Position numbers and translations under genes: made by a program. This document shows, piece by piece, positions 3,301-61,400 of a DNA stretch of 64,000 nucleotides. The notes beneath the pieces were generated by a model that worked only from the letters and a program-made list of their open reading frames with translations, made no database searches and had not been told where the DNA came from. The stretch lies in NCBI GenBank assembly GCA_002118135.1, contig BDIU01000084.1, positions 53,486-117,485 of the forward strand, read 5' to 3'. Origin of the DNA: Trebouxia sp. TZW2008 (Eukaryota > Chlorophyta > Trebouxiophyceae > Trebouxiales > Trebouxiaceae). How positions within the stretch are numbered: the first letter of the stretch is position 1; every line of letters starts with the position of its first letter.

Positions 3301-6300
3301 AACCAATAATATTGGACATGAAGGGCAGAGAGGGTCTTGTACACAGTTGACTACCAAGCATCTCTGGGTTTACCCTTGGCCTGGTCAAATGCATCAAAGC
3401 AGAGCAAAGGCTATGCTGTTCAGGGTCTCGACAGGAGTCCCTGTTGCCTGGAGCATTTGAGCATGCTGCCCTGAAGCTAAGTGTGTGCTGTTTTTTCACT
3501 AGAAACACATTTCGCAATTCCTGTTCATGGTTAAAAGAATGTTTGCTCCTGCATCACCACATCCCACAGGGTGAGGATTTGGCGACATGTTGCTGGCTTA
3601 TTGACTTGCAAATATGTACTTGCTTTTTTTGAAATCGACAATACAGGTCGCAACGCATGTAGGTGGGTACATGGCTGGAGTGACCACCAACTATGTGTTT
3701 GATCTTTAGCCAGGGGACATGTACTGGTGCACAGCTGACTGTGGATGGATCACTGGACACACCCATCTGACCTCTGGATCTTTGCTAAACTGTGCCCAGA
3801 ATGACATGCTTTGTGCAAACAACCTGGTTTGGAAACATGTCTTGCATTGTGTGCAGGCGGTTACATGGTCATGGCTGGAGTGACCACAAAGTATGTATTT
3901 GATCTTCAGCCAGGGGATGTGTACTGGTGCACAGCCGATTGTGGATGGATCACCGGTCACACCTACCTCACTTATGGGCCACTACTGAATGGTGCCCAGA
4001 ACGTCATCTTTGAGGGGGTACCCACTTACCCTGACCCCAGCAGATGCTGGCAGATTGTAGAGAAGCACAAGGTGAGTCGTGCGTTCAGAGCATGTGGTTG
4101 TTATGACGCTGATCTGCTTCAGCATCATCACTGACAAGACTCAGATAGCAAAGCAGACTGCGGGTCACAGTCAGCATGTCTGGCAAGTGCAAATGTGCAT
4201 GTAATGTTGCATCACACATATTCATCTGCAAATGGTTTGTCATGTGGTCCTGTCCCCTCACTCTAGAGAGCATGCAGACGTGGCTGCAGGAGTTTGTGAG
4301 ATATTTTGACTTTGTATACTGAATGCAGGTGCGCGTTTTCTACACAGCCCCCACCCTCATCAGAGCTTTGGAGGCAGCTGGTGACAAATTTGCCACCAAG
4401 AACGACCTTTCAAGTTTGAAAGTCCTGGGGACAGTCGGAGAGCCCATCAATGCCAAAGCCTGGAACTGGTATCACAAGGTTATTGGTGGCGGGAAATGCC
4501 CTATTGTGGATACTTGGTGGCAAACTGAGACTGGCGCCATTTTGTTGACACCTCTTCCAGGAGCCTGGAATCTGAAGCCAGGCTCTGCCACTTTACCCTT
4601 CTTTGGCGTACGTCCAGTGCTGTTGGATGAGAAGGTGAGGGAGTGCCAGATTAGGTGTACCCACGTAGACAAAATAGGCTTAATGCTGGAAGACAAGGTG
4701 TCCTGTTGCCCTTTACCCGTCCAAAAGCTGTTTGTGAGCATTCTCCTGCTGCCACATGTCTCAAAGGCTCTCAAGAGTCTTACGCTAATGCCATCCATGA
4801 ACCAGCATGACATTGCAACAGGTGCTGTGCTTCAATGCTGTCAAATATGCATCCACAATATGTCATGTGCTGTGCTACATCAGGTTCTGCACGTCTCATG
4901 GTGTGTCATCTAGCCCAGCCCTCGGCAGTTTTGCTTCAATGGCATTGCTGCAATGGACACGAGGTGCTGATGTGAGATGGTGGCATGAACAGGGCAAGGA
5001 GTTGAAGGGTGAGGTCGAAGGCATCTTGGCCATGAAACAGTCGTGGCCCTCTATGATGCGAACCCTCTACGGTGACCACAAGCGATACGAGGAGACATAC
5101 TTCTCAGCTTACAAGGTATGAGACTCAACAACACCCAAAGTCTGTTGCAGATCTGGTTCACGAAATGCACATTTCATCTTGAAGAATTGCACTTGTCAGC
5201 ATCATCATGATGTGCATCTGTTGCCTTGTTAGTACATCTGGCACTGGCAGCCATTCTTCTTCTCTGCATGACTCATCGTGAGTTGACTTGCCAATGCTAC
5301 AGATTGTTACACACTGCATGCCATGCATGTTGCCTGGACACTGTGCAGTAATGCGTCATGCCCACCTTGCAATGTTTTCTCTGACTGGTGTGCTATTTGT
5401 CAGTCTTGTTGCTTCACTGTTTAGATTCCCAAGAGTTGGGTCATTTGGGAGCGCAATGTAAACAAGGTATTGCTTCACTGCAGGGATACTATTTCTCAGG
5501 AGATGGGTGCAGGCGAGATGAGGATGGCTACTACTGGATCACAGGTGAACTGCTGCTGCTGTTGCCTCTGTCCCTGCTGTCTGCGTGCGCCATGCTGCTG
5601 TGGTCGCCTCTATTTGTGCCCTGTCTCTGTCTGGACTCTGCTGCTTTTCTTGACTCTGTGCGATGCTAACGTTCCTGCGTCTGTCCTGTCAGTTGCACCT
5701 GACCAGCGAACTTGAGCTGCATTCCTTGATCAATCAAAACAAGTCACAGATTACATGTGAACAGCTAACCTGAGCTGCATTCCTTGATCAATGAAAACGA
5801 GTCACACACTATATGGAAAGTCAAATGTGACTCATTGAGCTTTGTTGTGATGATTTCTTGACATACCTCTATAAGCCCTGCTGCTTGTTGGCTGTCTTCA
5901 GACTGTCTACAAACTAGCTCATTGTGACGCTCCACACCTTTGTATTTTGAACCTTGTCTTGAGCTTGGTTGTCGGCATATGCAGGCAAATGACTTGTGCT
6001 GTTGTCTGACAGATGTGCACAAGCATTTTGTGTCTCATTCTTTACAGATTCAGCCACTGCCTCTTGTCAGCTTGCATTTGTCTGCATGTCTGCAACACCA
6101 GCTGGCAAAATTAACGAGCTTTCTGAGTCCTAACCCTGCTGTGATTGACATGGACACAAGCTGCTGGAGAGCATGTGCAACAGGACAACCTGTTTCCTGA
6201 CAGCATTTGTCTCACCAGAAACTGCCATGGTCATTGTCCCTGTCATCATCACTGTTGTCATCACCGTGAACATGACAACCGATGTGATACAGGGCGTGTT

Positions 6301-8078: not shown

Positions 8079-11000
8079 ATGCAATATGCTGTGACAGACG
8101 CCGCCGATCCTGAGCAATTGGTCCGAGATCTGCTGTCAACTACAGAAGCAAGGAGGCTGATCTGTGCGCACGTCCAAGCGAGTCTGGCCGAACAAGAGAC
8201 GCATGAACATGACGACAGCCACGAGCGACAGAGCCCTAATAGTCTTGAACAGCTGCTTGCAACAACGGATGTCCTCCGAGTGGTCCGCATCCTCTTTGAG
8301 GAGTGCCAGAGAGAGACATGCCGCTCCTCAGATACAACCCTGGCTTTGAGGGGCTTGGCTGATGACGAGCCTGTTCTCTTTCATGTTCACAGGTAATGCT
8401 GGACCTCACGTCTACTGCACACTGCGCTCAAGAGTACTGCTTGACATCATACCTATAGCACACTGCACTTAAGTTCACTGCTCGACAACACACCCACTGC
8501 ATACTGCACTCAAAAACATGTTGACGCAAACCACAAAGAAGCTGTCCTACATCTGCAGATGCATCCTAGCCGCGCGCTGTCCTTTCTTCCAAGCGCTCTT
8601 CTCGACAACATGGACAGAACCTGGCGCTGAGCAGATTGCTGTCTCTACTGAAGAGGTGTGCACAACATAGAAGGTTTGCATTTCACAAAGCTGATGAATG
8701 TGCACAAACAGCCACTGCTCTAAAAGTCCAGCAAACAGAAAAGGCAACAAGAACCAGAGAGAAGCATGACAGCATAGGCGTACTGGCCGGGTCGTACAGT
8801 CCCAGACATAGCTTGGAATTTCAGGGCCTCAACTCTCACAGCTATCACCTCCTTTCAGGCAGCCATGCTTGCACTGTATGCTCAGACATTTTGGAAGCTT
8901 GCATCAATGTTGATCTGACCGTTGCGTATGCTGATGCCAAAACCTTTCGGGCTGCAGGGTAGTGGAGCTGAAGCAATCTCACTAACAGCATGATGCTTGC
9001 TGTTCATGACTGCATGTACTCATGACTGCAACTGTTTCTGTCTGCAGTGTAGTGGAGCTGAAGCTACCTCAGTGATTGGGTACCTGTACACTGACAGCAT
9101 CAGCAATGTGGAAATGGAAAATGCAGCAGAGATCATCAGCCTAGCCAATCTGTGGCAACTGCCAGGTATGGTTCTGTTTCCTCAAAGCTTCTGCCATGTA
9201 CACTAGACTCAAACACCCACAAATTCACATCAATTAAGGGCTGATGCTGATTGACATCATCTGGGCTTGGCAGCCAAATGCTCAGATTTAGCTTGGTGCC
9301 CACAGGCCTGTCTGAGTCTACGCTGTTTTGGCAAATTATTGATTGCTCCAGTATGTACCTAGCTGGGCCTGCTGAGCCTGTCTAGCACGCATTTAGAATG
9401 AATGAATAGAGTGAAATATTTTGGCAACAATCGCTGCTTGCTCACTGCGCTTATGCCCATGACATGCATTGTATTACATCATCACATGCATGGTGTGTGT
9501 GCTCCCACTGCATGTCATGATGCTGAACAGTTGATAAGTTCTTCACTGAACCATTTTGCGCAGCAGTCATCAAGCATGCCACCCTGTGAAGCCATTCAAT
9601 GCTCACATGCCAAGCTGGCAATCAGCACATACTGTTTTGTCCTGCTCAATTGTACTTACAAGTACAATTGAGCAAGCGTTCAAGATCAGCATTGCCTCTC
9701 CTTGTGAATTTTGCAAGATGACTCTGATGTTACTTTGCGCCTTTGCAACTGATAGGAATTTGCTTGATGTGTGGCAAAGGGAGTGCAACAAACGAGTAAT
9801 GCAAGAACGGGACTTGTGACTGAAACACCTAGCTACTTTGCTAGAACATGTCATCTATCATACTTTTTGTCATTTTGCAGATCTGATAGACCTGGTTGTT
9901 CAACACCTAACAGAGGGCTCCTGCCAAGGCTTCAGACGCCCAACTGCACCTTCAGACAGCCTGTTGGGTGACATCATAGCTATGACAGCCTTTACTAAAG
10001 CAGCGCTTGATGGCAACATTGAGCATGATGCCCTCACAACCTTGTACCAGGTCTAGTTTGCGACCTTTGCTTGCATGCACTGTGGCCATGCACAGCACTA
10101 GCAGGCAGAGCTGCATTCAGTCTCTAGATTTCAATCAGGATCACCAACAATCTAATCATATTCCAAAAGCTTGTTGGCGATGCAGCGTGTAGCTGCAGTC
10201 AATACAGGGAACTTGCAGTGCCTGTGGAACATAGAATGTCATCATGCTCCTGTATATTTCTTGTTACAGCTATACTGCATATGGGATGTCTCTGATGTCG
10301 TAGACATGGAAGGCAGCTTTGTGTTGGCTTTTCGCATCTTCTTGCATTTCTGCAAGGGAAACAGGCGCTGCTTGTGCGGCAAGTGTTGCTGTCTGCTTGT
10401 CCATTGTCAAAGTCAGTTAAGTTGATGCCTGCCCAAATCTGCATTGATCTGCTCAAAGACGCAAGTGTGGCTGCATAGTATTGAGCAGGAGCCTTCTGCT
10501 GCTGCAGTCTTGCATAGCATGGCTTGCCAAGCATGCCTTGATGACCTGGACGACAAAGGCTTTTGCGCAGCTACCTGCCAATATCCGTAGTGATGTCAGA
10601 GCAAAGGTGATCTAGCGCATTTTGTCATTGACATGTCTGTCACCTCTGTAGCTGCTGTGGCTTCACACAATACAAGGCTGTATGTGCCCAATGATCGCCC
10701 TATACATGCTGGCTTGCCTGAAGCTGATGGCTCATGCAAACATAGGTTGCATGCGGCTTGGCCTGGCAACTCTATGCTGTACACCTTCTCAAAATGCCAT
10801 GTACTTAAAAACATGTTTATGCCAGCTAGACAAATGCGTGGACAGTAAGCTGCCCTAATAGTAATAGAAATCATTACATGTTCCAGCATATACTGCTTGG
10901 TATGTGTGGCACAAGTCCTTTGAGTCCTAAGCTGCCCTCAGGCAGTCCCATGTCAATCTCCTGTGTTTTGCGTACTATGCCAGCACTGACACAAGACAAA

Positions 11001-13897
11001 GGGAGTCTCAACTCATAACATGCAATGGTTCTTTTGCAGTCAAAGGCAATGCTGAATGCAGCGAGTGTCACAGGTTACGATATGCAATGGATGCTTTGCA
11101 GGCAAAGGCAATGTTGAATGCAGTGAGTGCTGTGCCTCAACTGGAGCAGGCAGACAAATTGCTGACTCGCCTTCCTCAAGCTAAGTGGGCTGCAGATATG
11201 CACACCTCTTCACGTAAGACTTGCCGTTTCCACTCCTATGCATACACAACTACTTCAGACAACTTGCTTTGGAAAACCAATGCGGCAGCAGACATGCGAG
11301 CGTCTACAAACAAGACCTGTTGTTTCCAAGTTTCTGCACATGCAAGAGATTTGCTGACTTACCACAAGCCGACTCAGCAGCAGACATGCACACCTCCACA
11401 TGTGAGACACACCCAGCCATGCATTATGTATATGCCACAGTTGCTTTTTGGTGGCGGTTGAAATGCTAGATGCAGTTCTCTTTCTCTCAACAGCATATGA
11501 GACAAACTCCTGGGGTTCTGCCCACCTGTGTTATTTGCAGTGCCTAAAGAGCACATGCAGCACTTGGACTTGATTTGTACATACCAGACATCACCAATTG
11601 ACTGTCAGAGTGCATCTTCAAGAACACCACATTTAGGCATAGCTCCTTTCTTGGGGCATCTGGCCTTGCTTTGGTCATTAGCGCGATGCTGATACGGGCA
11701 GAATGACAATGGTTGTCTTGGCAGGTGCTTGGAGAGGTAAAGTGTTGCTGTTCATTACACACAGTTACCTGTTATGCATGCATGCAGTTCTGACCAATTC
11801 AGTTAGGTATCTATGTTTGCAGGGGCTTGGAGAGGTGAAGTGCTGCAATTTATTGCGGAGAATTTCCCAAAGGTAGTGCTGACATCAGCTTTCATGGAGC
11901 GACTACAGAGTGGATGGTCCTTGGAGCATTTGCAGCAGATAGCAGAGGTAGTGAAGACAGAATATGGGGCGTCTAGGGCTGGCTATGCCCTAGAGGTTTA
12001 CCTGGGGTTGCAAAGGTTGCAAAGCAGTGCTGGCAATGGCGCCATCAGTGAAGCTGAGGAAATACGGGAGCTGCTAGATGGACTCAGAGTATGCTTCTCC
12101 ACATCAGTCTGGGACCACGCTTCTTGAGCAGCATTCAAACAGCGATACACACACATAATTGATGTTCCTGTTACAATTGCTGTTGACCATTAGCTGTCTC
12201 ATCAAATGTCTTTCCAATAAACCTTTCAGTTTGATTGATGCATAACGGTCCATCCACATAGCTTTTATGCAGATACGTTTGTGGACACTGTTTGACCCGA
12301 AAGCATCAGCGTCTGCAGTTATGCTTGTTCTGTTGAGGCTGTATGCTACTTGGTGCTCCACCTGATGGAAAATGCTGTGCTAACACAAAAAAAACAAACA
12401 TAAGCTAGCTGTACTGCTATTTGCAGGAACACTGTTGGAACTACATACTGCGTAATTGGCACCTACTGCAGCGTACGCCCACATACAAGGAAACCCTGCC
12501 CCAGGACCAGCGCAAGCGCTTAGCCCTAGAGGTCAAGGAAAGCCTGTCCCACATCACTACAATAGAGTCCCCAACTGACAAAAGCCAGTCTATGGGATTC
12601 AGTGTGCTATGGGATGCAAGCAACACCCAGCCCGATGCACAAGCGTCAGCACTGACGCCAGATGGGAAGCGGCCTGTCAGTAAGGCTACCGAGAAAAGAA
12701 GACAAAGACTGGCGGAAGGTGAGCTTGTTACATATGTCGACGCTGAAACAGCATCTACAGCATCAAGCCTCCTGCAAGCATAAGAAGCATGCAGGCATAG
12801 TTTGGCAAATAGTCTTTTGCAGTGCTGGGGCCTTGGGTCAATCCATGTCGACCATGCATCACTTAGTGTGTCTGACATGACGCTAGCACAGTCTGTGAAT
12901 GCAACGCATGCGCGTGATGCACACTGTCTGGAGCACATCAATTTTGCTCAAATGCAAACTTTGGCAACGCCACCACATGCTAGAGTAAGTCCTCTGAGCA
13001 AAGTTGTGCCCACAATGCTTGCTGTGCTCTGTTGCAGAGCAAGAGCATCGCAGGCAAGCAGAAGAGCGACGAATGTTGCAGCAACGCAGGCAGCAGACCA
13101 TCAAGGAGATCAGGCAACGGCAGGCAGCTGCCGCAGCAGCATCACCAGCAGCTATAAGGCCAGTCGCTGCACAGCAACAGCCCAGCAGCTCACACATTAC
13201 ACAGGGTGCTGCAGAGCAACCAAACAGCAGCAGTGGCGAGTCTCGAAGTCATGAGCAGCCAACTGCAAGCTTAGCTCATCAGTCTGGCAGACAGGCTGAT
13301 GACTCAGCTGACAGCTCAGTCAGCAGCAGGTACAGCTCTGAAACCAAAGGAAATGCTGGGCCCAGCTCCCAAACCACAGGAATGGCCTGGCATAGCTCCA
13401 AAACCACTGGGGTAGAGTCTGCTGCAAACGCTCAAGCTAGTAGGGAGAAACCCTCAGGGCCAAGGGCAGGGCTGAGGGCAGGCAGCCGGCAGAGCCCTTT
13501 GCAGCAGGCAGGTAGTGCATCTGATAGGCAGACCTCTGCAAGAGCAGGGCCAAGGGCAGAGCCTGGGGCAGGACTGAGGGCAGGGCCAAAAATGGAATCT
13601 GGGGCAGGGCTTACGACAGGACCACAGAAAGATGCAAAGCCACCAATGGAGTCAGGGACAGTTCGAAGGGTGACAGATTTTCAAGCAAGTGTCAGGGCTG
13701 GGCAAAGGGCAGACCTAGGGACAGGGCTTCAACTAACACCTGACACTGCAGCAAGGGCAAGGGCAGGGTCAAGGGCAGATGCTGATCAGCCAAGCTCAGG
13801 CACACCTTCTAGATCTGGCAGCTTCCTGAGGGCAGGCCAAGGAGCAAGAGCCCTTCAGAAGCGGAGACAAAGCGCAGACCAGCTACCAGACACTTGA
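8079..13897 (+). CDS. BTB/POZ-BACK-like protein with disordered repeat tail
   Basis: Proposed exons: 8079-8392, 8863-8958, 9053-9165, 9881-10050, 10365-10460, 10508-10606, 11102-11213, 11823-12088, 12427-12718, 13038-13897; 2418 nt, 805 aa, all phases agreeing. Residues about 95-175 look like the second half of a BTB fold (VLFHVHS, then GYLYTD and ISLANLWQLPDLIDL). Two later segments resemble BACK-type repeats (WLAKHALMTWTTKAFAQLP and AWRGEVLQFIAENFPKVV). The C-terminus has a basic coiled coil (about 520-550, RRQAEERRMLQQRRQQ) and a 250-residue Ser/Gln/Gly tail with degenerate RAG(L/P)RAG repeats. BTB proteins of this kind are often CUL3 ligase adaptors; that role is inference. Weak points: the donor of exon 2, and a 47-nt GC-AG intron at 10461-10507. 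Confidence 0.72.
8951..8985 (+). repeat. Echo of BTB-gene exon 3 acceptor
   Basis: CTGCAG followed by GGTAGTGGAGCTGAAGCAAT here is repeated at 9043-9072 as CTGCAG-TGTAGTGGAGCTGAAGCTAC, the true exon 3 start. The copy directly abuts the end of exon 2, so exon 2's donor GT lies inside the duplicated segment. Confidence 0.7.
9335..9410 (+). mobile_element. Non-LTR retrotransposon 3' end fragment, second copy
   Basis: LLIAPVCT-stop (TAG 9360-9362), then CTAGCTGGGCCTGCTGAGCC and an AATGAATGAAT tail (9397-9407). It matches the minus-strand copy at 3199-3300 in order and spacing. It sits in intron 3 of the BTB gene. Confidence 0.55.
9644..9673. repeat. Near-perfect palindrome in BTB-gene intron 3
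   Basis: GCTCAATTGTACTT, two bases (AC), then its exact reverse complement AAGTACAATTGAGC. The 14-bp arms could form a tight cruciform or an RNA hairpin. Function unknown. Confidence 0.85.
11025..11080 (+). repeat. Echo of BTB-gene exon 7 head
   Basis: TTTTGCAG then TCAAAGGCAATGCTGAATGC is a copy of the true acceptor and exon head at 11095-11121 (GCAAAGGCAATGTTGAATGC). The spacing is about 62 bp and the upstream TGCAATGG is also duplicated. Confidence 0.8.
11158..11410 (+). repeat. Three diverged copies of BTB-gene exon 7 tail plus donor
   Basis: The exon end around GCTGCAGATATGCACACC...GTAAGACTTGCC recurs twice downstream (about 11280-11325 and 11378-11410) as GCAGCAGACATGCGAGCG and CAGCAGACATGCACACC. 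The third copy ends in GTGAGAC, donor-like. I placed the exon end at 11213, but a later copy could be used. Confidence 0.65.
11724..11760 (+). repeat. Echo of BTB-gene exon 8 head
   Basis: GGCAGGTGCTTGGAGAGGTA here copies the true exon start GCAGGGGCTTGGAGAGGTGA at 11819-11838, about 96 bp downstream. Confidence 0.8.
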
Positions 13898-20381: not shown

Positions 20382-20407
20382 CGCACACACACACACACAC
20401 ACACACA
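20382..20407. repeat. (AC)n microsatellite
   Basis: About 13 AC dinucleotides, in an intron of paralogue B. Confidence 0.9.
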
Positions 20408-26059: not shown

Positions 26060-26116
26060 TGTGACCTCGATGAGCTTGCCATTATAGTCCAGTGCAGTCA
26101 GAAAGCTGTCCTTGAC

Positions 26117-45800: not shown

Positions 45801-48800
45801 AGACAGTGCAAATCTTAACTCTGTACGCCAGCCGCTGTTGGAGTCTTCCCTGGAACACAGCCTGTTTTTGCTCATGATTTGTAGATTGAAGCTCATGGCA
45901 TGCACCTTTGATGACACTGACCTGATTGCCCCTTTTGCATGCTGAAGCCATTTTGGAATGTGTTGCAGCCAGAGGAACAAACGCAGCTGACTCATCCCAA
46001 CATGGCCTCACTGCTGTTGATATAGTGGCAGCTGCATATGATTCAGCCAGAGGAGAAAGCATATCGGACTTTTGTTACATATCCTCAGGGATGATTTGCA
46101 ATGGTGAAATGAGAATGCATCAAGTCAGAAAGACTGCGCTCCTTTGCATGACCTCAGCTGTATTGCCAAATGGTGCAGGGACAGCTGAATGTGATCAAGC
46201 CAGAGGAGAAAGCTCAGCTAGCGCGGCTCAAGGCCAGCCTGAGTGACCGGCTGATGCCCACGCGAGACACCAATGGCTTCAGGAAGCTGCTGGTTGTGCT
46301 GTCCCGTGCTGGTAAAACCCCTTGTCTTGTCAATCACAAGCAGCATCAATAAGCACCTCAAAATTGTGAGAGTAAAGATGGCAATAGTACCAGCAGTGAT
46401 AAGTAGCATTGCGATGCACAGAATGTTTGAAAAAGTAGAATTGAGCATGACATGGCAGCATTGGTCGCACAGTTCAGACACATGTACGCAAGTCCAGAAA
46501 CGCCTGACAGGTGCAGAGAAACATCCTGTCAACAATGTTTGCCTGGTGGAGCTGCAAACACTTTGGTCTCACGTTTGCAGGCAGACTGCCAGGGCTGCAC
46601 ATCAGCGACGGCCACATCATGTGGTCCCTGACACACTCAAGACACCAGTCTCCTCAGCAGATTTTGCCGTGGAGGTCCTGTCATGATCTGCAAAGAGCGC
46701 CAGAGCTGCTCACAACTTATAGTGCAGCAACGCTGTCATTTGAACCAAGGGGCTGAAGCTGACTTGTGTCAATGTGCGCAGGCAAGCTGTCAGGGATGCA
46801 TAGTACGCAAGCCATGTCATGTAGTCCCTGACACACCCAAGACAGCAGGCTCCTCTACAAAACTTCCCATGGAGGTTATTTCATGACCTACAAAAGACCG
46901 CCAGAGCTGCTCACACTTCACAGCACAATTACTGTGACAGTTGTCTCAAGGCATATTGCAGCTGACTGAGGCCAATGTTTGCAGGCAAGCTGTCAGGGCT
47001 GCACAGCGGCGACGGTCATGTCATGTGGTCCCTGACATACCCAAGACACCAGGTCCCTCAGCACATACTGCCGTGGAGGTCCTTTCATGACCTGCAAAGA
47101 GCGCCAGAGCTGCTCACAATGCATAGTGCAGCAGCATTCAGCTCTTACAGCATTGTGAATGCACATTCTGGCAGGGAACTTGGCTCTGGGGACATTAGCT
47201 TTCCGGTCATTCAGGTAAAGCATCAACTCTTTGCCCTTGTGTTGCACTCACTGAAATTGGGCTTTTGCTGCATCACTTGGATACTGTTCAAAGTCACATG
47301 CAGTTCTTCCAGCCCGAGATTGCCACCTTGCAGCTGTTGACAGCATTCTCTAGTCAGCGGGCTTGCCCATCTCGCCGTCTTTGCAAAACACGATGTGCAC
47401 AGTCAGCAAGAAGCAGATTGATCTAACCGCAGACAGTACGTTGAAGTCACCTGTCTTGCTGCCTCCCATCCTTCCTTCACAGTGCTCATTGCAGGTTGCA
47501 CACTGAATCTCGTTGTCGTGATTGATTTCATAATTTGACACCTGTGCCCTTGCAAACGCAAGGTAGGTAACAGGTATGCCTAACCCTGTTTCTGCCATTG
47601 TGATGTCTCCGACCCCAAAGTCATGTTGGTTTCTGCAGCCTGGTGCTAGCAATGAATATTTTGTCATGCAAGAGACAAGCTGAACAACCCGTGCGCAAAG
47701 CATTGGCAGTGTACACTGTAGTGAGTATGACATCCTGCTGCAGGTGTTGGAGTTGCCACAACTGCTGCATGACAAGGAGGCAGAGCAGCATGTGTACCTG
47801 CTCATAGGGGGCAAGGGCGGCAAACGAGTGCAGCTGCTCCCTGACAATGTCCAGTCCAAGCAGCTGTTGCAGTCACTCTCTACTGACGTCTTCTTTTGGC
47901 AAGAAGATAAACCAGCAGGTACAAATGCAGAATTTTGTCACACAACTCCGCTTGGCCAACAGACAATCCAGCAGACATGTTACAAATTGTCATCTGTCAT
48001 CTTGAGTATTGGCAAGGCACGGCCATTTTGACAAACACCTGATGTGAACTAGCTGCATCAGTCATTGGCTGCTGCAGTTGCTGCTTGCCATGTTGTCACA
48101 AGTCAGCTCTGATGCAGCTTTCATGCAAGGGTTGTGTGGTTGCTGAATACTGGACACATCTCCATGCACGACATGATGCTCATACACAGCTTACATTGCT
48201 GTTCCAGTGCTGGTTGATTTGGTTCTGATGTCAGCATGCGCACTGGCTGATCCTCATGGCAAATTGATCACCATCAATGCAAGCATTTGAGCCTAAGAGT
48301 CTTTCAATCTAGTGTCCTGTGAGCAGGCAGCCTGACTGGATTCATATCAACAGGCAGAAATTGGCAGTGATGCAGCTGTGGTCCAGTGTGTTTGCCACCC
48401 CTGGTTGCGCACTGCTGGAGGTTGTGGCCCGCAATCCAGTGCACTGCGGCAAAGACGTGACTCACAACTGCACACTGTTGACTGTATGTTGTATGAGCAG
48501 GCACTTTGACCGGTTTCCACATTAACAGGCAGACGCTGGCAGTGACACAGCTGTGGTCCAGTGTGTTTGCCACCCCTGGCACTGCACTGCTGGAGGTGGC
48601 AGCCCGCAACCCTGCAGACCAGGTTTACTCACAAGCCAAGGTACATCTGCGCCCTCCTGCCTATTGTCAGATTGGTTGCCATATCCTGCAGTCCTCTCTT
48701 GACAGGACGCTCGACATAAAGTAAATCTTGGTGTCAGGGCAACGGGAATTCATTGACTGCATTCTGACTGCAGTGGTGTTTATGAGCAGGGACAGTCTCA

Positions 48801-51707
48801 TGCAAGGACGCTGATGGGACCAAACGCACTTGTTACTTCAAAGGAAAGTGCACATGCTTGCCAGTGGGTGTTCAGGACTATGCAAGAGGGAAGCAATGAG
48901 TTATCTCTAGATGCTCATCAGAACCTCATGTACCGTTGCAAGACATTTCAAAACAAAATCTTTGAGAGCCAGCAGCTTTTAGCCAGAAGTCCACAGCATG
49001 CTTGCCTGTCTGCAGCTTTTTAATACAAGAGCTTGGGTTTCCAGCACATCAGTCCCAGCACAATGGTTGTAGCATCAGCCTGCTTTCAGCCTCCTTGTAC
49101 AGGCATAAGTAGCCGCTCGAGCCTCACAAACCAATCTCTTTCTGCAGATCTTGGGCAATAAGAGCTTGAAGATCAAGTACCTGAACCCCAGCACAGTGTT
49201 TGTGGCCACAGGCCCGCCTCAGGGGCGGCTGACAGAGGATATCAACCCAGGCAGCACACTGCTGACTGTGCAGATCTTGGACACTGTTACAGGCGCCCCC
49301 ATACACCGCCAAGTTCACAAGGTAAATCATCAGCAGTGTCTTGACCTTGACGCTGTTGCTGCACCTTTGGCTTTGAGGTACACACACAGATAAGGCAATG
49401 CTGATTTTTTGCTGACAACGCTGTTGTTGGTGCTGTTGTCCATGCACATCTTGGACACTGTGATTGGCACCTTGATAGACCGCCAGGTCCACAAGGTCTA
49501 TAGAACAACTGTTGCCTGCAGGGTCGTCAAGGTCCAATGCATGCACAATTTGTGGAGAACTGGGTAGCCTGCCATCACTTTGATGTCACCAACCACAGGT
49601 GGAAGATGTCACGCATACTGTAGCGTTATCAGCACTTGCTGTCTGCAGGGCTGTCGAGGCCCAGTGCACGCGCAGTTTGTGGAGAACTGGGTGGCATACC
49701 ATTACTTTGATGTCACCAACCACAGATGGGAGATGTCGGTGCTAGAGCTGTATAACAAGGCGCAAGGCAATGTGACTATCTCTGACATGGTGTTTGGCAA
49801 GATCAGAAACAGCATGTCATCTTATGAGCCAGTGCCTGCTGAGGTGAGGCTTTCAGTAGAAGGTTGAGCAGCCTGCAAAACATGTGTTACATCTGTCAAT
49901 GATCAACCTGTTGATATGCAGCGTCTGCAGTGCCTATCTATAACTGCCTGCCTTCTCTTTGTAGCGACTGCAATCGATATCAACAAAATTTAGCATTGCC
50001 CTTGAAGCAATTGAGAACTGATCCATGCCGGTGGAATGCAGTGGCTGGTTCCCAGTTGCATTTTCCTTACTACAAGCATGTCCTTGGATTATGTTTGCTT
50101 CTATCATAAAGTCGCTTTTATTTTGCCCAATCACAGTTGTCTGGACATGACGGTATGCAGGTATTGAGGCAATCCTTCTTCATTGACACAGCAGTCAAGG
50201 CCATGGGTGTCAGCTCCACAATGCACGGCATCAGCAGCAAGTTCCTGCTGCTTGGCACACTGTCAGATCAGGTACAGTCCAACTGTCTGCACCGTCCTGA
50301 CAGACAGTGTTATGCAACGTTTTGGCAAGCTAGACCCTGCGCCGTATGCATCCCTTCAAGGTCGCCTATGATGCTCAAAGGCAAAGAATGACAATACAAG
50401 TCTGTATTGTTGCACAAACGTGGTGTCACATCCAGCCCAAATATATTTCTCATTTGTGGTCATCCCCAGCACATGCATATTGATGCATGTACATAGCTGC
50501 ATCTTTTCACAGCATGCCTGATTGCATGTGTATTCTGACAAAGGAACTGTACATAGTACACACAAAGCATGCATCAGCTTGTGCGCAGAATTCATGTTTG
50601 TGCGCTGCTCTGCAGGTGTATATGCTTGACAAGCGTCTGCTAGACCCAAGGCGCCCAATTGGCAAGCCCTCACAAGATGATCAGCTGGAGCAGCTCATAC
50701 CCTATCAGCAAGACCTACCCTTGGTGCCACTGCAATACGCGACACACAGCAGACAGGTTGCTCAGCTCTCAGGTGAGCTCATTTCAGTGAATTGCCATAC
50801 GCTCCATCTCCGTGACTTGTACAAGTTTCAGCATTGATTCTGCTGACTGTCAATTGCACATGCACCTGTGCTTTGAAATTGCAAGTGCAATGCTGGACTT
50901 GCCCTTGGTGTCACTTCAATATGCGACACACAGCAGACAGGTTGCTCAGCTCTCAGCTGATTTCCTTTGGTAAAGCATTGGTTCTGCTGACTGCCATCAA
51001 CACATACACCTGTGTTTTCAAAATGTGAGTGCAATGTGGGACCTGCCCCTTGTGCCACTTCAGAATCCTACTCATGGCAGACAGGTTGCTCAGCTCTCAT
51101 GTGCGTACATTTGGTGATTTCCCTCCAGTATGCTACACGCAGCAGACAGATCGCTCAGCTCTCAGGTCATTTGAATTGGTGCAGCTGCAATTTCACAAAA
51201 TGATATGCCCTCAAATGCCTGTGATGTCAGATCAGCTGAGAGGTTCAGTATATCACATCTGGCTCAAAACCCACTTTGCACATCAAATTGATATACTGGT
51301 CAGCTCTTACATCAAGGAAAGCTTCCTGAAACATCAATTGTTGCTGTGCCTTGGCATTGATTGATTGATTGATCAATGCCCGTGCAAACGCGAGGTCGGT
51401 GCCTTGGCATTGCAAGTGTGTGATGCGCCAATGCAGACAGTGGGCATGACGGAGAAGTGTAACAAGCATTTCTGTGATGCTCGCAGGCATTGCTACAAGT
51501 CCTGCAAATCTGGAGTCAACTTCACTCATGTTGGCATATGGCTTGGATCTATTTTTTGCAAGGATACAGCCCAATCAGGCATTTGATTCATTACAAGATG
51601 ACTTCCCATATGCGTTCCTGGTGTTGATTACCTTGATTCTGACTGGTGCTGTGCTAGTGTTCAAGCGCATTGATGATAAGTCAACTACACAGCGAAAGTG
51701 GTTGTGA
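42809..51707 (+). CDS. EMC1: ER membrane protein complex subunit 1, 14 exons
   Basis: Largest, lumenal beta-propeller subunit of the EMC insertase. Exons: 42809-43267, 43372-43508, 43820-43989, 44563-44739, 45040-45470, 46179-46311, 46985-47214, 47744-47918, 48501-48640, 49148-49321, 49649-49843, 50161-50271, 50616-50772, 51487-51707; 2910 nt, 969 aa, as in other EMC1. It opens with a signal peptide (MRSGTCFGLLFLLTASGALA) followed by IYEEQAGENDWH, like IYEDQVG..DW of animal EMC1. Later family marks are RVVATSL-type propeller strands, SGLHSGDGHVMWSL, VHAQFVENWVAYHYFDVTNH, LDPRRPIGKPSQDDQLEQLI and LESTSLMLAYGLDLFFARIQ. A single C-terminal membrane helix (FLVLITLILTGAVLVF) precedes a short basic cytosolic tail. 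An optional extra exon near 44150-44190 (DVQSIQHAWGE) cannot be excluded. Confidence 0.96.
45955..46080 (+). repeat. Two echoes of EMC1 exon 6
   Basis: GTTGCAGCCAGAGGAACAAACGCAGCTGAC reads QPEEQTQLTHP against KPEEKAQLARL of the true exon. A second at 46044 (TTCAGCCAGAGGAGAAAGC) matches AAGCCAGAGGAGAAAGC at 46199. Confidence 0.8.
46578..46984 (+). repeat. Two full-length echoes of EMC1 exon 7
   Basis: Acceptor-exon copies start at 46583 and about 46786 ahead of the true exon at 46985, a period near 202-205 bp. Copy 1 is open for over 170 bp (GLHISDGHIMWSLTHSRHQ, then LPWRSCHDLQRAPELLTTY) before a stop. Copy 2 meets a stop after about 16 codons. Neither shows the true donor at the exon end. 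Confidence 0.95.
48310..48455 (+). repeat. Echo of EMC1 exon 9
   Basis: GAGCAG/GCAGCCTGACTGGATTC..LAVMQLWSSVFATPGCALLEV copies the true exon (LAVTQLWSSVFATPGTALLEV, 48501-48640), about 190 bp upstream. One base is missing near its start, so it would shift the frame. Confidence 0.95.
48757..48773. repeat. Dispersed repeat core, copy 3
   Basis: CTGCATTCTGACTGCAG, matching 17242-17258 and 28797-28812. Confidence 0.4.
49440..49506 (+). repeat. Echo of EMC1 exon 10 tail and donor
   Basis: ATCTTGGACACTGTGATTGG...CGCCAGGTCCACAAG/GTCTAT copies ATCTTGGACACTGTTACAGG...CGCCAAGTTCACAAG/GTAAAT. Confidence 0.95.
49517..49615 (+). repeat. Echo of EMC1 exon 11 head
   Basis: CCTGCAG/GGTCGTCAAGGTCCAATGCATG then FVENWVACHHFDVTNHRW, against FVENWVAYHYFDVTNHRW in the true exon at 49649. 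The spacing is about 125 bp. Confidence 0.95.
50890..51168 (+). repeat. Three echoes of EMC1 exon 13 tail and donor
   Basis: The exon end CAGACAGGTTGCTCAGCTCTCAG/GTGAGC (50750-50778) is repeated at 50934, 51079 and 51144. The last ends CAGCTCTCAG/GTCATT and the second CAGCTCTCAT/GTGCGT. Confidence 0.95.
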
Positions 51708-52406: not shown

Positions 52407-55400
52407 ATGCAAGCAAGCAACGAAGCGAGTGGAAACGATGATTACTTCTCTCGACGCGACCTGCACCCACGCACGGGTGACTTCGCTGCCTTCACTGGCA
52501 GGACTTCATCGTCAGATGTCAGTCCACGATCTGACTTTCACGAAGACGTTCTCTCCGGTTTTGACCGCCATCAATCGAGAGAAAGCCAAGACATGCCTAC
52601 AGAGGCAGATGTCGAGCTCGAAGGCGTGACTGCAGACGGAGGTCTCGCTCTGAATGTCGGGTTCGACAGCGCACGTGGTTCACTTGGGCGAGCTGAGCAG
52701 CATCAGAGCCATGTAAGAGGTTTTCTGTCACTTGCTGCTTCCTGCTCCTTTTGAACGTGTGCACTGGCTAAATGTGTACAAGCAGTGTGCCTTGCTGCCA
52801 CGTCGATCAAAGCACATGCAAATGGAAGTGCCTGCTGAAGCCTGTGTAAGACTTGCAGGAGAAGCTTGATGGTCAAGTGGCTGCAACACAGCCATACAAA
52901 ACAGCGCACACTGATCACCCACCCATCGGCAGATCAGAACCGCGCGTGGTGCCACCTCTGGCCATTGTGCTCATGTGCGCTGGTACTCGCGGAGATGTGC
53001 AGCCTTTCATTGCTCTGGGGCTGGAGTTGCAGGTGCTCAGCTTGACTGAAGTGCATCAGCATGCACCTGTATTTCTCAGTGCTTTCCACGCGTTGCTGAC
53101 ATGGCACTGATCTCAGTGGCTACAACATTTGTACAACCTGCTGCATATGCAGCTTTATATCCATAAACCACATCATGCAATTTTCTGATTCTGATGTATG
53201 CTGATGTCATGGTCAACACAGCTTTCTACAGCTTGCAGAGTGGTTGCGGGCTCTCTTGTTTTGCTTATAGCTGCTAGTGAAATTACATAGTCAATCTCTG
53301 TTACCTGGCTGTTGGCTGGTGATGCAGAAACATGGCCACCAGTGCGGCATTACACGCGGCCTACAGGAAGTTTGCATCCTCTTTCGGAGAAAACTGATGT
53401 GGCCAAGCATCTCAGCATTCAATCTTCATCTGACTGGTGACTGCTAATGCAGAAACATGGCCACAGAGTGCGAGTGGCATCACACGCGGCCTACAGGAAG
53501 TTTGTGACCTCCTTTGGCCTTGAATTCTACCCTCTGGGTGGCGATCCAAAGGTGTGGCAAGGTTTTGCTCTGTGCAGCTGCGTTTGCCAAGCAACATGGC
53601 AGTGCTTTGTTGCTTGTAGTTACGTTGGGTAATCAAGTCGAGATACTAACTTCACTCAGCAGTTGATATGCTGTTGACTTCAAATGAACAATGTGAATGC
53701 AGTCAGCATGTGTGATCAAACACTCTCTGGCTTCGTTGAAGGAGCAGGCATGTATGTTTGCTGAAAGCGCTGTCTGATTTTGTCTCAACAGAGGCGCCCT
53801 GACATATCGTTGTCTTGTTCAAGGTTTGCAAACAAGCTTGCTGCTGCAAACTGTGCAGGCACAGGCTTCATTGTTGCAGGTGATATTTGATTGCCAGGGG
53901 CATCATTCACCTCTCATCGAGCACGATCCAAGAAAGTCAAATGCTGCTGCAAGAAATCAGCATACGAAAGCTCTATGTTGCAGGTGCTGTCTGACTACAT
54001 TGTAAAGAACAGGGGCATCATGCCAGGAAGTGCTCGGGATGCATATGACCAGTACAGGGAAGTGGAAGCCATTGTGATGTCCACTTACAAGGCGTGTGTA
54101 GACACTGATGTAGAAGGCAACGGAGACCCATTCACTGCACAGGTGTGACTTTTGGCATGACCTTTGAGCTATGCTCTCTGGTGAGCATAGCTCAATTTTG
54201 ATGGCCCATGGCTCTTGCATTTTTCTACACTTGCCGTCAGAAGTACAGAGGTTTGCACTTATCAAAACAACTCAGCCTCTTGCATCCACGCTTTTTTCTG
54301 CAGCCCTGGCAAACTTTGATATTGACTGTTTAGCCCTCTTTCTGCCTGACTGCTTTTCTGTTTGCGACAATGCAGCCTTTATCCGGATGTAAAGAAGCAC
54401 AGTGTGAGCACTACATTGCAATCATAGTTGGCATTATTGTGAAATGTGGCTATGCAGGCTATCATATCCAATCCGCCTACATATGGCCACATCCACTGCG
54501 CTGAAAAGCTGGGCGTTCCTCTTCAGATGTTCTTCACCATGCCCTGGACCCCTACCAAGGTACTCATCTCTAAGCTACTCAATTCATCTGAAACAATTTC
54601 TAAACCACTTGGCTCAAGCCAAGCTATTCCAGTTGCATGATTATCAGCAGGACAACATCTTGCAACACTGCAGTCTGCTGGCAAAGATATTTGTCAGTGC
54701 GTTCAGATGCACTAGCATGCTTCAAGCAACTGTCTGCAAGCCTGTCAAAGGCTGTTTTGACCAGCTTCTGATTTGGGTCTGAAAAGTTGTCTTTGCCCCG
54801 TGTCATGTTGCCAGCTGATCCACATTCCAAATTTGCAGCAAAGCATGCACAGGATGAAGTAAGACTGCTGCAGTGCAGGCGTTTCCGCACCCGCTGGCTC
54901 GGCTGAATGCAGTGAAGGACACACGGGCCGCAGGCTACCGCAATCTGCTGTCCTACATGGCAGTGGATGAGTTCACCTACACAGGTATCTGACCTGCGCT
55001 TGCATTCCTGTCAAATGCGTAGTTGTCGTAAATGCCTTACATAAAACATAGCATAGCATGATGCCTCACAGGGATGCTTATTGGTTGTGGCCGTATAAGG
55101 CGCCACAATGTGCAGCTCACAATGGCCATGAGTTCAATCATTTGTGCATTCCTGTTGTACAGTCAGGCATGGTCAGCTTGTCTTCTCAGTATCTAGATCA
55201 TGATAGATAGCTCCTATTGCAGCCTCCTGCTGAGGACAATATTGCAGTGAGTCCATCCTGCATGCTCTAAATTTGTAATGCGGATTTGCATCCTCCTCAA
55301 GTTTTGCAACTGTGGCTTGATAAGGAGATGTACGTTAGTTCAGATCTACTGCAGATGTTGTAGTACAGAATCCAAATTTATGTGAGATGATGCTCATGCT

Positions 55401-58400
55401 GAAATCATGGTCACACCAGGCTGTTGCCCATCTATGCATCTCTAATTTGACTGCAGGGCTGGTGCATGTGATCAACAAGTTTCGGGTGAAGACGCTGGGT
55501 TTGGCTCCTGTGCGGTTGGGCAACAAGGGACCTCACCTTCTGGCAGCCCACTCGGTCAGTTGCTTCAACTCTTGCATTCATGTTGCAGTTCTTTTCCTTG
55601 GTCCTGGTATCCTGTCTGCCGAGTATGTGTGAGCAACCCCTTGACGGCTGACTCAGCAACTGAGCCTGCTCCTGCGCGGCTGGGCAGCAAGGGGCATCAG
55701 CTTCTGGCAGCCCACTCAGTCAGTTCTCACATCATGTTCTTTCATGAAGTAATAATGTCTACACTTTCCAGCAAGAGTGCTAGGTGTGTGTGTGGCTTAA
55801 GTCTTGTCTCGCCAGGCTGGCTTGTTCTGAGCGTCACTGGATGGACGTCTATTGTTCAACTTATGAAAGTCAGACAAAACAATGTCGTTCCAGATCTTTC
55901 TAGGCTGACTCTGGGGGGTTTACGCCTTTGACTTGACCACACAACATGACTTTGGGTGGTCTACAGTCTAATATCCTGCAGATGTGACGGTACCACCTAA
56001 GGCTCTTGTTCCTCAGTCGAGACTTCATGCAACACATCCTGCAGAGTGCCAAAACCTCTGCATATGTCCCTCAAAGATGTGCCACAAATGTGTCTCAAAC
56101 AGCTCATCAACAAGACAGACAGCGCTGCACAATATTTGTTGACTAGAGTTCAAGTCTCTGCCCCATACAACAGCACTGAAATGACAGTGGACTGGACTAA
56201 CTTTAAAAGGTGACAAAGCCCTTGCAGGCCAAACCTCAGCCTTGTGCAAACGAGCAAAAGCAGCACTTGCAGCACTTTCATTTATGCTGGGCATGTTCTG
56301 CTTTTGTGTTGATGATGTCAAAATTGTCAGCACTGGTGAGTTATTACGCTGACATTACATCCTTCAGGCTTGCAATTCTTCCTGCTTGGTCTGTGCAAGC
56401 CATTGCATGTTCTGACAGCGCAGCCAATGAGCGTCTGCATCCCTTGCGTGTATGCTGACACTATTGGCTTCTGCCTTGATACGCCTCCTGTCTAGTGCCC
56501 TTTTCTGCAGCAACTTTGAGTGATCATGTTGTACATGTGCCTCTTGCATTTCACTGGAAGCAGTTCTGGTGCCAATTAGACTTTCTGCTGCCTAAACATG
56601 TCTTGATGCCGGTTTTTCCCCAACAACAAAGAGCTCAGCTGTGTAAGTTGCCATTGTTCTGCAGGTGCCATTTGCATATTGCTGGAGTGAAGCGCTGGTG
56701 CCCAAACCTGCCGATTGGGGCGAGCACATCGACATTGTCGGCTACTGCTTCCTAAATGAAGGCAGTCACATGAAGTACCATGCCCTAAAAAAGTTACAGG
56801 AATTTCTGGCAACTGGTAAACCGCCTGTGTACATTGGCTTTGGCAGCCTGATGGTGGATGATGCCAAGAAGCTGACCAGAATCATCCTGGAAGCTGCTGA
56901 AGAAACTGGACAGCGAGTGTTGCTTTCAAGGTGAAAATTGCTGTAACTGTTGAAACATGACAACAACATGTTAAACAAGAATGATGTTGATGACTATCGC
57001 AATGACAGCAGTCACTGCAAGCATAGCATCATGTTGTTGTGATGATGCAATCAGGGGCAAAAAACAAATACAGTGCGCTGTCAGGCATGCTGCTGTGGCT
57101 TGACGTTCTTGCTAGACTCAAGTCTGAGTTGTGCTGTCTGAAAATCCTGAAATATCAAGAAAAACCAGATGCAACATAAGTTGCGGACACAGCACCAAAC
57201 AGTATCGGCTGTGGTTGGCTGTCCTACTTACATGCCAAAACACTGAACGAGAAAAAAGCCAAAACAAGGCCTAGCTTGCTGATAGTCACCTCTGCGCTCA
57301 TGCTGACTGCTGCTGCTACTGTCACTGCAGGGGTTGGGGCGGGTTAGGGGAGGGCTTTGACATTCCCAACACCGTTCTTCTTCTGGACAATGTGCCACAT
57401 GACTGGCTGCTCCCCCAATGCTGCGCTGTTGTGCACCATGGCGGTGCTGGAACCACAGCTGCAGGTTTGTTCCTCTTCTTTTCTCCTGGCTGCTGCAGAG
57501 CCACTGCTCTTCTTCTCTGCTAGCTGGTGTGCATGGCAGTGCTGGCACCACAGCTGCAGGTCTGTGCCTCTTCTTCTCTGCTTGCTGCTGCAGCACTGCT
57601 CCTCTTGTTCTCTCCTGGCTGCTGCAGAGTTTCTGCTCTCCTTCTCTGCTAGCTGGTGTACATGCTTGTGCTGGCACCACAGCTGCAGGTCTACCCCTGT
57701 TCTTCTTTGCTTGTTGCTGCAGCACTGCTCCTCTTGTTCTCTGCTGGCTCCTGGCTGCTGCAGATTTACTGCTCTTATTTTGTGTTAGCTGTTGTGCATC
57801 GCGGCCGTGCTTGCTTCACAGCTGCAGGTTTGTTCCTTGTTCTGCCTTGATTGATGCTTTCCACCAGGGGAGTTCTTTTTATGTTGGTGCTGTCTTCTTG
57901 TTGCAGAGACGCCTGAACTGAGTGCAAGCACTAATGGTTTAATAGTGTGTTCTCATTCTTTATCCTCAACAATTTTCATCACTTGGTCAGGCTCATTTGC
58001 TCTGTATGCTGTGCAGAGCTAGTTGCCGGCTGCCCAACAACAGTAATGCCTTTCCTTGGGGGGCAACCTGCACCCCGGATGGGGGTTGGCCCCTTCCCCA
58101 TTTGTCTGATTCCCATTTCCCGCGCTGTTCATGAGCAAATTTGGCTCATCTGCTGTACATGTTGTGCAGGGCTAATTGCCGGGTGTCCAACAACAGTCGT
58201 GCCATTCTTTGGGGATCAGCCCTTCTGGGGGGCGGCCTGCACCCGCATGGGGGTAGGCCCCAAACCCATCCCTATAGACAAGCTGGACACGCCTTCATTG
58301 GTTGCTGCTCTCAAATTCATGATGAAGCCTGAAGTGCAAGCAGCTGCTACAGAGACAGGCCAGGGCATCAAGCATGTAAGGCTCTGCCTCACATGTTGAT

Positions 58401-61400
58401 CAAATGAGGTAGCATGTCCACTGTGTGCAAGCATATAAAGCCTTTCTCAACTGTAAACAATCAACACGATAGCAGATTCACATTGTGTTAAAGCATGCCA
58501 AGTCCTGCCTTGAACCTCGCTGTGCCCTTCTGCCTAAAGTTGATATTTTCGGTTTCCTCAGATGCCCATCACGTGTCTTCAGCAACCTTGCCTAAAAGTG
58601 ATAGCGCTTGTTCATAATGGCTTAAAACAGGCTGTGGGAGCCTTCCACGTGCATTTACTCCTAGAGCAGATGCAAGCAAGAGGACCTTGAAGACTATTGT
58701 GACTCTGCTGTTGCCGTGTAGGAAGATGGGTAAAACAAAGCTGTGAAAGCTTTCCAGGCACATCTAGTCCTGGATTGGATGGAGGGCAGGGTGCCCCTGC
58801 ATTGTCTTCTGGCACTTGCATCAAGCAGTTACAAACAACGCTGACCTGTATAGCAGCAATTGAACAAGCAAACTCAAGGCTCTTGCATCTCCTGAATACT
58901 TGCTATGCAGGGGAAAGGACTGAAGAACGCATTTGAAGCTTTTTATGCGCATATACCCCTGGAGCAAACGGAAAGCAGGGTCCCTTGACTCGTTGATGTT
59001 GTTTTCCTGTTTGGGAAACCGGCTCAGAAAGGCAAATGCCTCTCAGCTGGCATGTGACCTTGCACATGTATACAACAATGCTGGTCCATGCACTGGATCT
59101 TTTTCACGGACATGTAGCAAGATGGGCTCAAGAAGGCTGTGGAAGCTTTGCGTGCACATCTACCCCTGGAATAAATGGAGGGCAGGGTGCTCCTGAAATG
59201 GCTTCTGGCACTTGCAACAAGCATTTGCAAACAAAGCTAACCTAAATAAAGTGGCACCTGACCAAAAAACCTGTAGGCTAATGCATGTCAGAAGGACATG
59301 CTGTGCAGGAGGACGGACTGAAGAAGGCATTCAAAGTGTTTAATGCACATCTACCCCTAGAGTGAATGGAAGGCCGAGTCCCTTGACTCATTGATGTTGT
59401 TTTCCTGTTTGGGAAAAGGCAGATGCCTCTCAGGTGGCATGTGACCTTGCACATGTATACAACAATGCTGGTCCATGCACTGGATATTGTTCATGGACAT
59501 ATAGGAAGATGGCTTGAAGAAGGCAGTTGAAGCTTTCCATGTGCAGCTACCCCTACAGCAAATGGAAAGCAGCTCCTGAAGTTTTGAGACACAGCAAATG
59601 CCTGCAACAGCTGGATGCATTTTGACTCTGAGGTTTTCTCTATAGGAAGATGGGCTCTAGAAAGCTGTGGAAGCCTTTCATGCGCATCTACCTCTGGAGC
59701 AAATGGAAGGCAGGGTGCCCTTGAAATGGCATCTGGCCGAACCCTGCTTTGGCAAGACTGACTTGTTAATCACATTCTGTTCTTGCTCGTGTGCAGGAAG
59801 ATGGGCTCAAAAAAGCAGTGGAAGCTTTCCACGCGCATCTACCCCTAGAGCAAATGGAAGGCAGGGTGCCCTTGAACTGGCATCTAGCCAAGCCCCATTT
59901 TGGCAACATTGTGTCAGAAACTGGGCGGGGTGTGGTAGGGCTTATCAGCGAGCCCATCAGAGGCTATAGAGAGGGCGGTAAGCACCAAAATGCCCTGCCC
60001 TTGCCTTGGCCTTGCTGTAATTTTGCACTCTTCTCGTCCTGCCCTTGCAGGCAGTCTATCTATCTGACTGTCTGAGATTGGGCAAGGGCTTATCAGTGAA
60101 CAGGTCAGGGGCTACAGAGAAGGCGGTAAGCACAAAACCGCCCTGCCCTTGCCCTGCCTTAGCCTCAACTTTGCAGTGCCATCATCCCAACATGCAGTCT
60201 GTCTATGTGTCTATCTGAGACTGGGCAAGGGGTGGTGCGGACTCATCAGTGAACCAGTAAGGGGCTAAAAAGGGTGGTAAGCACCCATGCGCCCTCTTCT
60301 TGCCCTGCCCTTGCCCTGCCCTTGCCCTGCCCTTGCCCTGCCCTTGCAGGCACTCTGATAGTTTGACGTCGGGAAACTTGTAATGGTTGATCTGATGTGT
60401 ATTGTCGTGAGTCCACGGTGCTTGTATCTGCCTGCTCATTCTTGAAAATGGCAGGTGTTATTGGGAATGAAACCACCACCGCAAGGTCTGGAATACAATA
60501 TCGATTCCTGCTCACATGCTCACTGATGCTGTGGTGATACAGGGTTCTTGGGGATCATCAAGGGGGTAAGGAAAGGTCTGGGGGGGGGGGGGGGGGAGGG
60601 GGGTGGTTCAGTGTACTATCTCTGGAAGGGACTGCCCCTGTCAGCAGCAGCAAATGATGTCACAGCCCATCCTGGGCTGTAGAAAGCAGCTAGTCCTTTG
60701 GTACTGTGATATTGCAGGATTTTAGGGGCCCATCAAGGGGGTGGGCAAGTGTCTTGGGAAAGGGGAGGGGGGGGAGGGACAGTGTGCTAACCCTTGAAGG
60801 CGCTCTCCCTGTCAGCAGCAGATGTGGGACTTCACGCTGCCAATGCAGGCTTGCTGCTGAAGACAGCCACCACTGAAAAGCATTGGTGTCAGACTGATGC
60901 TGTGATGGTACAGGATTCTTGGGGACCATCAAGGGGTTAGGGAAGGGTCTTGGGGGAGCTATGTACTACCTTTTGAAGGGGCTGTCCTTATCAGCAGCGG
61001 ATGTTTGGCTTCATGCCGCCAATGCAGGATTGCCGCTGAAGGCCACCAGTACTAAAAAGTACCAGTGTCAGATTGGGGCTGTGATGATACAGGATTCTTG
61101 GGGACCATCAAAGGGGTAGGGAAGGGTCTTGGGGGGGCTGTGTACTACCCCCTGAAGGGTCTGTCCTTATCAGCAGCGGATGTGGGGCTTCATGCCGCCA
61201 ATGCAGGACTGCTGCTGAAGACCACCACCACTGAACAATATCAGGGAGCAGTGAAAGGCGCCAAGTAAGCACAATTTTCAGAGCTATGCACAGCATGATT
61301 GCTATTGTCTGCAAGATGTCACTGCGACAATATCTTCAATCAGTCCTCTGCTTTGGCACATTTGCATCACTGCATTTGCATTACTGTATGTTTGCAGGCA

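Follow-up and report, generated by a model that had tools for sequence, protein, structure and literature searches.

Decayed local copies of exon edges in the introns of Trebouxia sp. TZW2008, probably the debris of small direct duplications

How introns grow without transposons is, to our knowledge, poorly resolved. Tandem duplication is an established route to new introns (review PMC3443670), the RdRp gene of potato contains a duplication across an intron-exon boundary (PMC4974935), and duplications internal to genes are said to be frequent (PMC4974935, PMC3443670). Small tandem duplications arising from break repair have been called the most frequent kind of short insertion in the human genome (PMC8355091, PMC5730883), and introners, or transposon-made introns, have remodelled introns en masse (PMC9860276). 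Here, we report that in the green alga Trebouxia sp. TZW2008 roughly a tenth of exon edges have a decayed copy in the next intron, often together with the splice site. These copies, termed echoes, were studied in a stretch of 64,000 nucleotides (assembly GCA_002118135.1, contig BDIU01000084.1, positions 53,486 to 117,485, forward strand), hereafter called the window, and in further stretches of the same genome.

Like the potato RdRp case (PMC4974935), the echoes involve duplication across a boundary and splice signals inherited from the parent copy; unlike it, where one new intron was made, they are extra, decayed copies in existing introns, lie on both sides of exons and recur genome-wide. 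Like the break-repair duplications they are short, direct and local (median distance 148 bp; 246 direct against 47 inverted matches), whereas those duplications are fresh and abutting and the copies here are older and mostly spaced. They share with introners the mass remodelling of introns (PMC9860276), but there is no dispersed family: the copies adjoin their own exon, other loci give an expectation of 0.02 matches, and the echo of the ACS gene, apart from matching itself and its parent exon, matched at two places in the paralogous genes. Mutually exclusive exons differ as well, since only 2 of 57 edge-bearing echoes have both exon edges, 26 of 68 echoes are disabled, and changes are even over codon positions. 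As regards intron gain, the exon is served by the outer sites of the intron that contains its echo, and in the one case compared a paralogue has the intron free of the echo and another lacks the intron. In the literature searched, which consisted of titles and abstract openings and in which subscription papers were mostly outside reach, no description of dense, two-sided exon-edge copies was found; of two Trebouxia genome papers, one has the word ‘intron’ once, in a reference, and it is absent from the searched main text of the other. As far as this literature shows, neither small tandem duplications nor the gain of introns through them is new in kind; the novelty lies in how dense and two-sided the copies are, in their decay and in the age gap.

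The DNA examined consisted of the window and 19 outside stretches of 10 kb on 14 contigs, 254 kb in total, the outside positions having been picked blind from a genome of 68.5 Mb in 527 contigs. Base composition was 0.49-0.53 in the 19 sampled stretches; for comparison, the genome of Trebouxia strain A48 is given as 69.1 Mb with 49.7% GC (PMC12712428). Exons and introns were predicted from the DNA alone by our own gene finder, which was trained on window exons and given a stronger exon penalty, and which returned 306 confident exons, with a median length of 167 nt, and 269 introns, with a median of 378 nt. Two of the resulting models align with solved structures: UGT80 with a sterol 3-beta-glucosyltransferase, over residues 67-484 of 490, and EMC1 with its solved counterpart, over residues 17-130 and 555-854 of 856, a single weakly matching stretch separating the two parts. 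Of 10 hand-picked exons among the 58 that bear echoes, eight matched Pfam at E<0.01, seven of these past the Pfam cut-off, and two had no match. An example of gene-finder error is the predicted exon end at 49377, which is probably about 54 nt too long.

Each exon was then compared with its adjacent introns, at a threshold of at least 36 bits, and chance expectation was taken from 130,464 pairs of exons and introns from different loci. A same-strand copy of the exon was found in 56 of 538 exon-intron pairs, 38 of these outside the window, against an antisense copy in a single pair and an expectation of 0.02; donor-side and acceptor-side matches were equal in number (28 and 28). The initial annotation of the window had described the echoes as direct copies lying in the intron next to the parent exon, and had proposed just such a self-alignment against random pairs; both the description and the expected excess were borne out over the window and the 19 outside stretches. 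When 25 chunks of 10 kb (the 19 outside stretches and 60 kb of the window) were compared with themselves, 246 direct and 47 inverted matches were found within 1 kb, while the same chunks, each dinucleotide-shuffled once, gave 0 direct and 2 inverted. These local repeat matches occupied a mean of 12.7% of the sequence.

From the window and the outside stretches, 139 non-redundant local direct repeat pairs were collected, spread over the window and 17 of the 19 stretches. In 68 of the 139 pairs exon sequence was present in one copy only (46 such one-sided pairs came from the 190 kb of outside stretches), and 54 pairs contained no exon sequence (42 intron-only, 12 unassigned) and followed the same pattern. 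Part of a recognisable local direct duplicate was held by 70 of the 269 introns (26%); introns with repeats were longer (median 569 against 350 nt), although this has to be read with caution, because length itself raises the chance of containing a repeat. A predicted exon edge was included in 57 of the 68 one-sided echoes and not in the other 11. Where a single edge was included, the echo lay on the intron side of it in 54 of 55 cases (22 left edges echoed to the left, 32 right edges to the right), and thus the two classes that had been noted, upstream and downstream, each on its fixed side, indeed hold well beyond the window. The one violation involves a predicted ‘exon’ (positions 2428-2473 of stretch L009) that may itself be an echo, and two further echoes contain both exon edges. 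Classed by splice site, there were 58 edge echoes, 32 of acceptors and 26 of donors. Tblastn with the protein models matched exon and echo separately for two exons of EMC1 and two of UGT80.

The window itself contains 38 of these pairs. In 22, exon sequence is confined to one of the two copies, and these 22 touch 19 distinct predicted exons, which were assigned to genes by their neighbouring predicted exons: one in ACS, two in the BTB gene, one in a gene at 22 kb, and five each in SEC24, EMC1 and UGT80. This is close to the ‘at least 20 exons in six genes’ of the initial annotation. The exons and their echoes are as follows, with percentages giving the identity of the copies.

3857..4071 (+), ACS exon (AMP-binding; Pfam AMP-binding E 5e-12), parent of the acceptor-side echo 3670-3813 (+), 82% over 144 bp, distance 200, with an in-frame stop, its tblastn match containing one TAG.
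9048..9165 (+), exon of the BTB gene (name from the initial annotation); echo 8945-8981, 86.5%, distance 90.
11823..12088 (+), exon of the same BTB gene; echo 11718-11756, 82.1%, distance 98.
22003..22125 (-), exon of an unnamed gene; echo 22251-22378, 75%, distance 169.
28135..28288 (-), SEC24-model exon; donor-side echo 27993-28082, 80.4%, and acceptor-side echo 28509-28579, 84.7%.
29382..29562 (-), SEC24-model exon; echo 29615-29816, a 170-bp unit in 2.1 copies, 91.6%.
30185..30308 (-), SEC24-model exon; donor-side echo 30025-30071, 78.7%.
30491..30638 (-), SEC24-model exon whose head recurs in a 97-bp array, 30570-31128, of 5.8 copies.
32863..33110 (-), SEC24 trunk-domain exon (Pfam Sec23_trunk E 7e-19); echo 33175-33284, 79.5%.
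46179..46311 (+), EMC1-model exon; echo 46029-46060, 87.5% over 32 bp.
48501..48640 (+), EMC1 exon; echo 48320-48437, 82.4% over 119 bp, with separate tblastn matches for exon and echo.
49148..49377 (+), EMC1 exon aligning with the solved EMC1, its true end probably near 49323, where the match stops; echo 49443-49497, 80%.
49649..49843 (+), EMC1 exon aligning with the solved EMC1; echo 49510-49610, 84.2%, with its own tblastn match.
50616..50772 (+), EMC1 exon aligning with the solved EMC1; donor-side echo array 50896-51115, 69.6%, distance 184.
53453..53551 (+), UGT80 exon aligning with the solved sterol 3-beta-glucosyltransferase; echo 53291-53387, 78.4%.
55457..55554 (+), UGT80 exon; donor-side echo 55668-55725, 87.9%, distance 164.
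57331..57443 (+), UGT80 exon with a predicted end; donor-side repeats 57523-57858, 85.7%.
58170..58375 (+), UGT80 exon; acceptor-side echoes 57990-58061, 81.9%, and 58057-58101, 82.2%, with an echo tblastn match.
59797..59977 (+), exon near the end of UGT80; repeats upstream at 58906-59755 and downstream at 60085-60315, with an echo tblastn match.

Other repeats were seen in the window. Beyond the last of these exons, an array of about 175-179 bp (60543-61264) has successive copies that are predicted as exons, belonging to the 3' end of UGT80 or to another gene. At 34221-35948 there is a tandem 713-bp unit of 89% identity, far above the usual 60-200 bp, with further diverged copies over 33840-36041. 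A perfect 23-bp minisatellite of 4.2 copies lies at 1343-1438, and a 33-base query taken from it matched nowhere else in the genome.

The fate of the copies was examined in the ACS gene, which has two paralogues, on contigs C107 and C44. The echo at 3670-3813 is missing from the corresponding intron of the C107 paralogue, an intron of about 365 nt by match coordinates against 754 nt in the window. The C44 paralogue has no intron at this position, i.e., the presence of the intron itself varies among the paralogues, and the paralogues have their own, different echoes, both upstream and downstream of other exons. With the paralogues as outgroups, changes could be polarised in seven exon-echo pairs from the three genes, leaving 21 changes unresolved. 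Changes derived in the echo were spread evenly over codon positions 1/2/3 (18/16/18), whereas those derived in the exon were concentrated at the third (2/0/15; Fisher p 1.6e-4); for the echo at 3670-3813 the respective counts were 7/2/3 and 1/0/7. Since two exons each serve two pairs, some exon changes were counted twice, and with one echo per exon the result was 15/13/13 against 2/0/13 (p 5.4e-4). Among indels in coding parts, 26 of 29 were not a multiple of three, and 26 of the 68 one-sided echoes had a stop or frameshift within the aligned part. The echoes are dead sequence. Coding constraint on the echoes, at which the unpolarised data had hinted, was rejected on the even codon-position spread after polarisation, and an origin in which the echoes were born diverged was not supported, third-position changes being alike in echo and exon (18 against 15).

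We consider it likely that the echoes are the debris of small, local, direct duplications that occur throughout the genome, are tolerated at single junctions and then decay, most of those now visible belonging to an older cohort. A mutational process would yield such duplications anywhere in the DNA, presumably tandem ones of the type left by error-prone repair of staggered breaks. Those that would break a protein should be lost, while a duplication spanning one exon-intron junction would be harmless as long as splicing used the outer site, as the encoded proteins suggest it does. With the outer site in use, the inner exon edge and its splice site would turn into intron and drift, for which the polarised substitutions of the ACS paralogues provide the basis. 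The exon half would become over-represented, as simulation supports, because its partner, frozen by selection, outlasts copies in which both halves are intronic. Since most visible events would come from the older cohort, the intron half would often have faded, so that the copies look spaced. The initial annotation had proposed a simple tandem duplication across the junction, the outer site being retained. Local direct duplication over the junction and neutral decay of the inner copy are upheld by the polarised codons, the off-frame indels and the frame-free copy distances; the layout is indeed direct and local, but mostly not abutting, and the exon-free pairs belong to the pattern as well. 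The constant-rate form of the tandem model was rejected, as it yields too much intron overhang and places a fraction of 0.37 of the pairs at 88% identity or more, where 7 of 54 were observed.

Several observations weigh against this reading, among them the spacers, the short overhang and the paucity of young copies. Only 39 of the 139 pairs abut or overlap (spacer of at most 5 bp), and of 53 spaced exon pairs 35 have no remnant on the predicted side at p<0.05. Among 13 edge echoes of at least 86% identity, eight stop 2-13 nt past the splice site. Models with older events (ages of 0.12-0.4 or 0.2-0.5 substitutions per site) fit the spacers and the short overhang only approximately and give too few high-identity pairs, while a simulation with echo decay slowed to 0.4 of the neutral rate fits the identity spread better and overstates the short overhang. 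In the unpolarised set of 68 pairs, there is a third-position excess (336 against 286 +- 11 under a neutral echo) and a shortage of stops (9 against 15.4 +- 3.8); disabled and undisabled echoes show the same third-position bias. Pairs wholly within exons are not depleted (9 against 7.8 +- 2.6 under random placement). Finally, the densities are those of one genome.

The geometry bears most directly on an alternative that we regard as unlikely, though it is the strongest of those weighed, namely local templated insertion, in which the end of a break is extended by 30-160 bp copied from a template no more than about 200 bp away and is then rejoined, the spacer being present from the start. Copy distances were 60-200 bp in 114 of the 139 pairs (median 148, interquartile range 106-182), and positive spacers occurred in 104 pairs, 71 of them of 30-140 bp. 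The spacers of more than 5 bp in 100 of 139 pairs are as templated insertion would have them, and so are the several pairs at 88-97% identity that have sharp ends and unrelated flanks. However, tandem duplication predicts on which side remnants of the spacer should lie, and of the 53 spaced exon pairs 18 had them there, compared with 4 on the opposite side; among 22 exon-free pairs, for which the better of the two sides was taken, 14 had them. The strong direct-orientation bias (246 against 47) also speaks against templated insertion, and simulated old tandem copies give similar spacers. Free-end alignment of the intron flanks discriminated little, as the control identity was about 0.70.

Placement bears on a second and much less probable alternative, that a process tied to splicing or transcription copies exon edges with their splice sites. 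One-sided pairs were indeed in excess of random placement of the 139 pairs (68 against 39.5 +- 4.9), and 26 of the 58 edge echoes end within 13 nt past the splice site. But the same kind of pair is found without exons, the 42 intron-only pairs comparing with 54.5 +- 5.6 and the 12 unassigned ones with 15.3 under random placement, and local-repeat coverage is higher outside annotated exons and introns (18.4%) than in introns (10.7%) or confident exons (13.2%). Furthermore, detection bias predicts an excess, because the exon half, frozen by selection, can be recognised for longer. The simulated detection ratio of junction to intron-only pairs was 1.0 for young copies, rose to 1.2 at 0.15 substitutions per site and to 3.0 at 0.20, and was higher still at 0.25-0.30. 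Pairs with both copies touching exon were fewer than at random (8 against 21.8 +- 3.6), as selection on proteins would give. The copy distance was divisible by three in all 9 wholly exonic pairs, most of which sit in repetitive coding sequence, in contrast to 22 of 68 one-sided pairs (Fisher p 1.2e-4) and 16 of 54 exon-free pairs. Copying special to junctions, as the initial annotation had it, is therefore not supported; random placement with slower decay of the exon half can, in these simulations, explain the excess.

The splice sites in the echoes were scored with matrices trained on the predicted sites themselves. Echo acceptors had a median score of 6.0, close to real acceptors (6.6) and far from random intronic sites (-0.6), while for donors the medians were 3.1 for echoes, 5.0 for real sites and 0.6 for random intronic GT; the echo outscored its own real site in 12 of 32 acceptors and 8 of 26 donors, and in this sense the suggested store of decoy splice sites is substantiated. 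The acceptor scores, together with the intact dinucleotides (acceptor AG in 31 of 33 echoes and donor in 19 of 24, against 68% in controls, p 0.001; AG is kept more often at echo acceptors than elsewhere in the same alignments), would suit echoes that function, under selection, as alternative or mutually exclusive exon ends, as would the unpolarised third-position excess and the part of the simulation that is fitted by a slower-decaying echo. Such a function is nevertheless highly improbable, considering that polarised echo changes are even, 26 of 29 coding-part indels are out of frame and copy distances are divisible by three in 22 of 68 cases, the chance level, and that the dinucleotide excess is no longer significant (p 0.17) once junctions less than 15 nt inside the match are set aside. 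Least credible of all is an assembly artefact, such as haplotype or strain chimeras, given that most pairs are 70-90% identical, unconstrained change is specific to the echoes, 26 of 68 echoes carry stops or frameshifts, and pairs occur in 17 of 19 stretches beyond the window.

Near-identical pairs are rare (5 of 139 at 92% identity or more). Later loss at a constant birth rate cannot cause such scarcity, which points to a past pulse of duplication or to assembly collapse of near-identical copies. Small duplications, a known class of mutation, are tied by the echoes to intron length, and both how splicing chooses between near-identical neighbouring sites and what becomes of the decoys can be tested directly within one genome. 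It is possible, although we hold it only tentatively, that a past and largely finished pulse of local duplication rebuilt the introns of this lineage and left some 16,000 exon-edge echoes, many of them bearing splice sites almost as strong as real ones, a number extrapolated from the 46 one-sided pairs per 190 kb outside the window to 68.5 Mb. If true, such a pulse would have been a main route of intron growth and would have provided a standing reservoir of decoy sites and proto-exons for the spliceosome to ignore.

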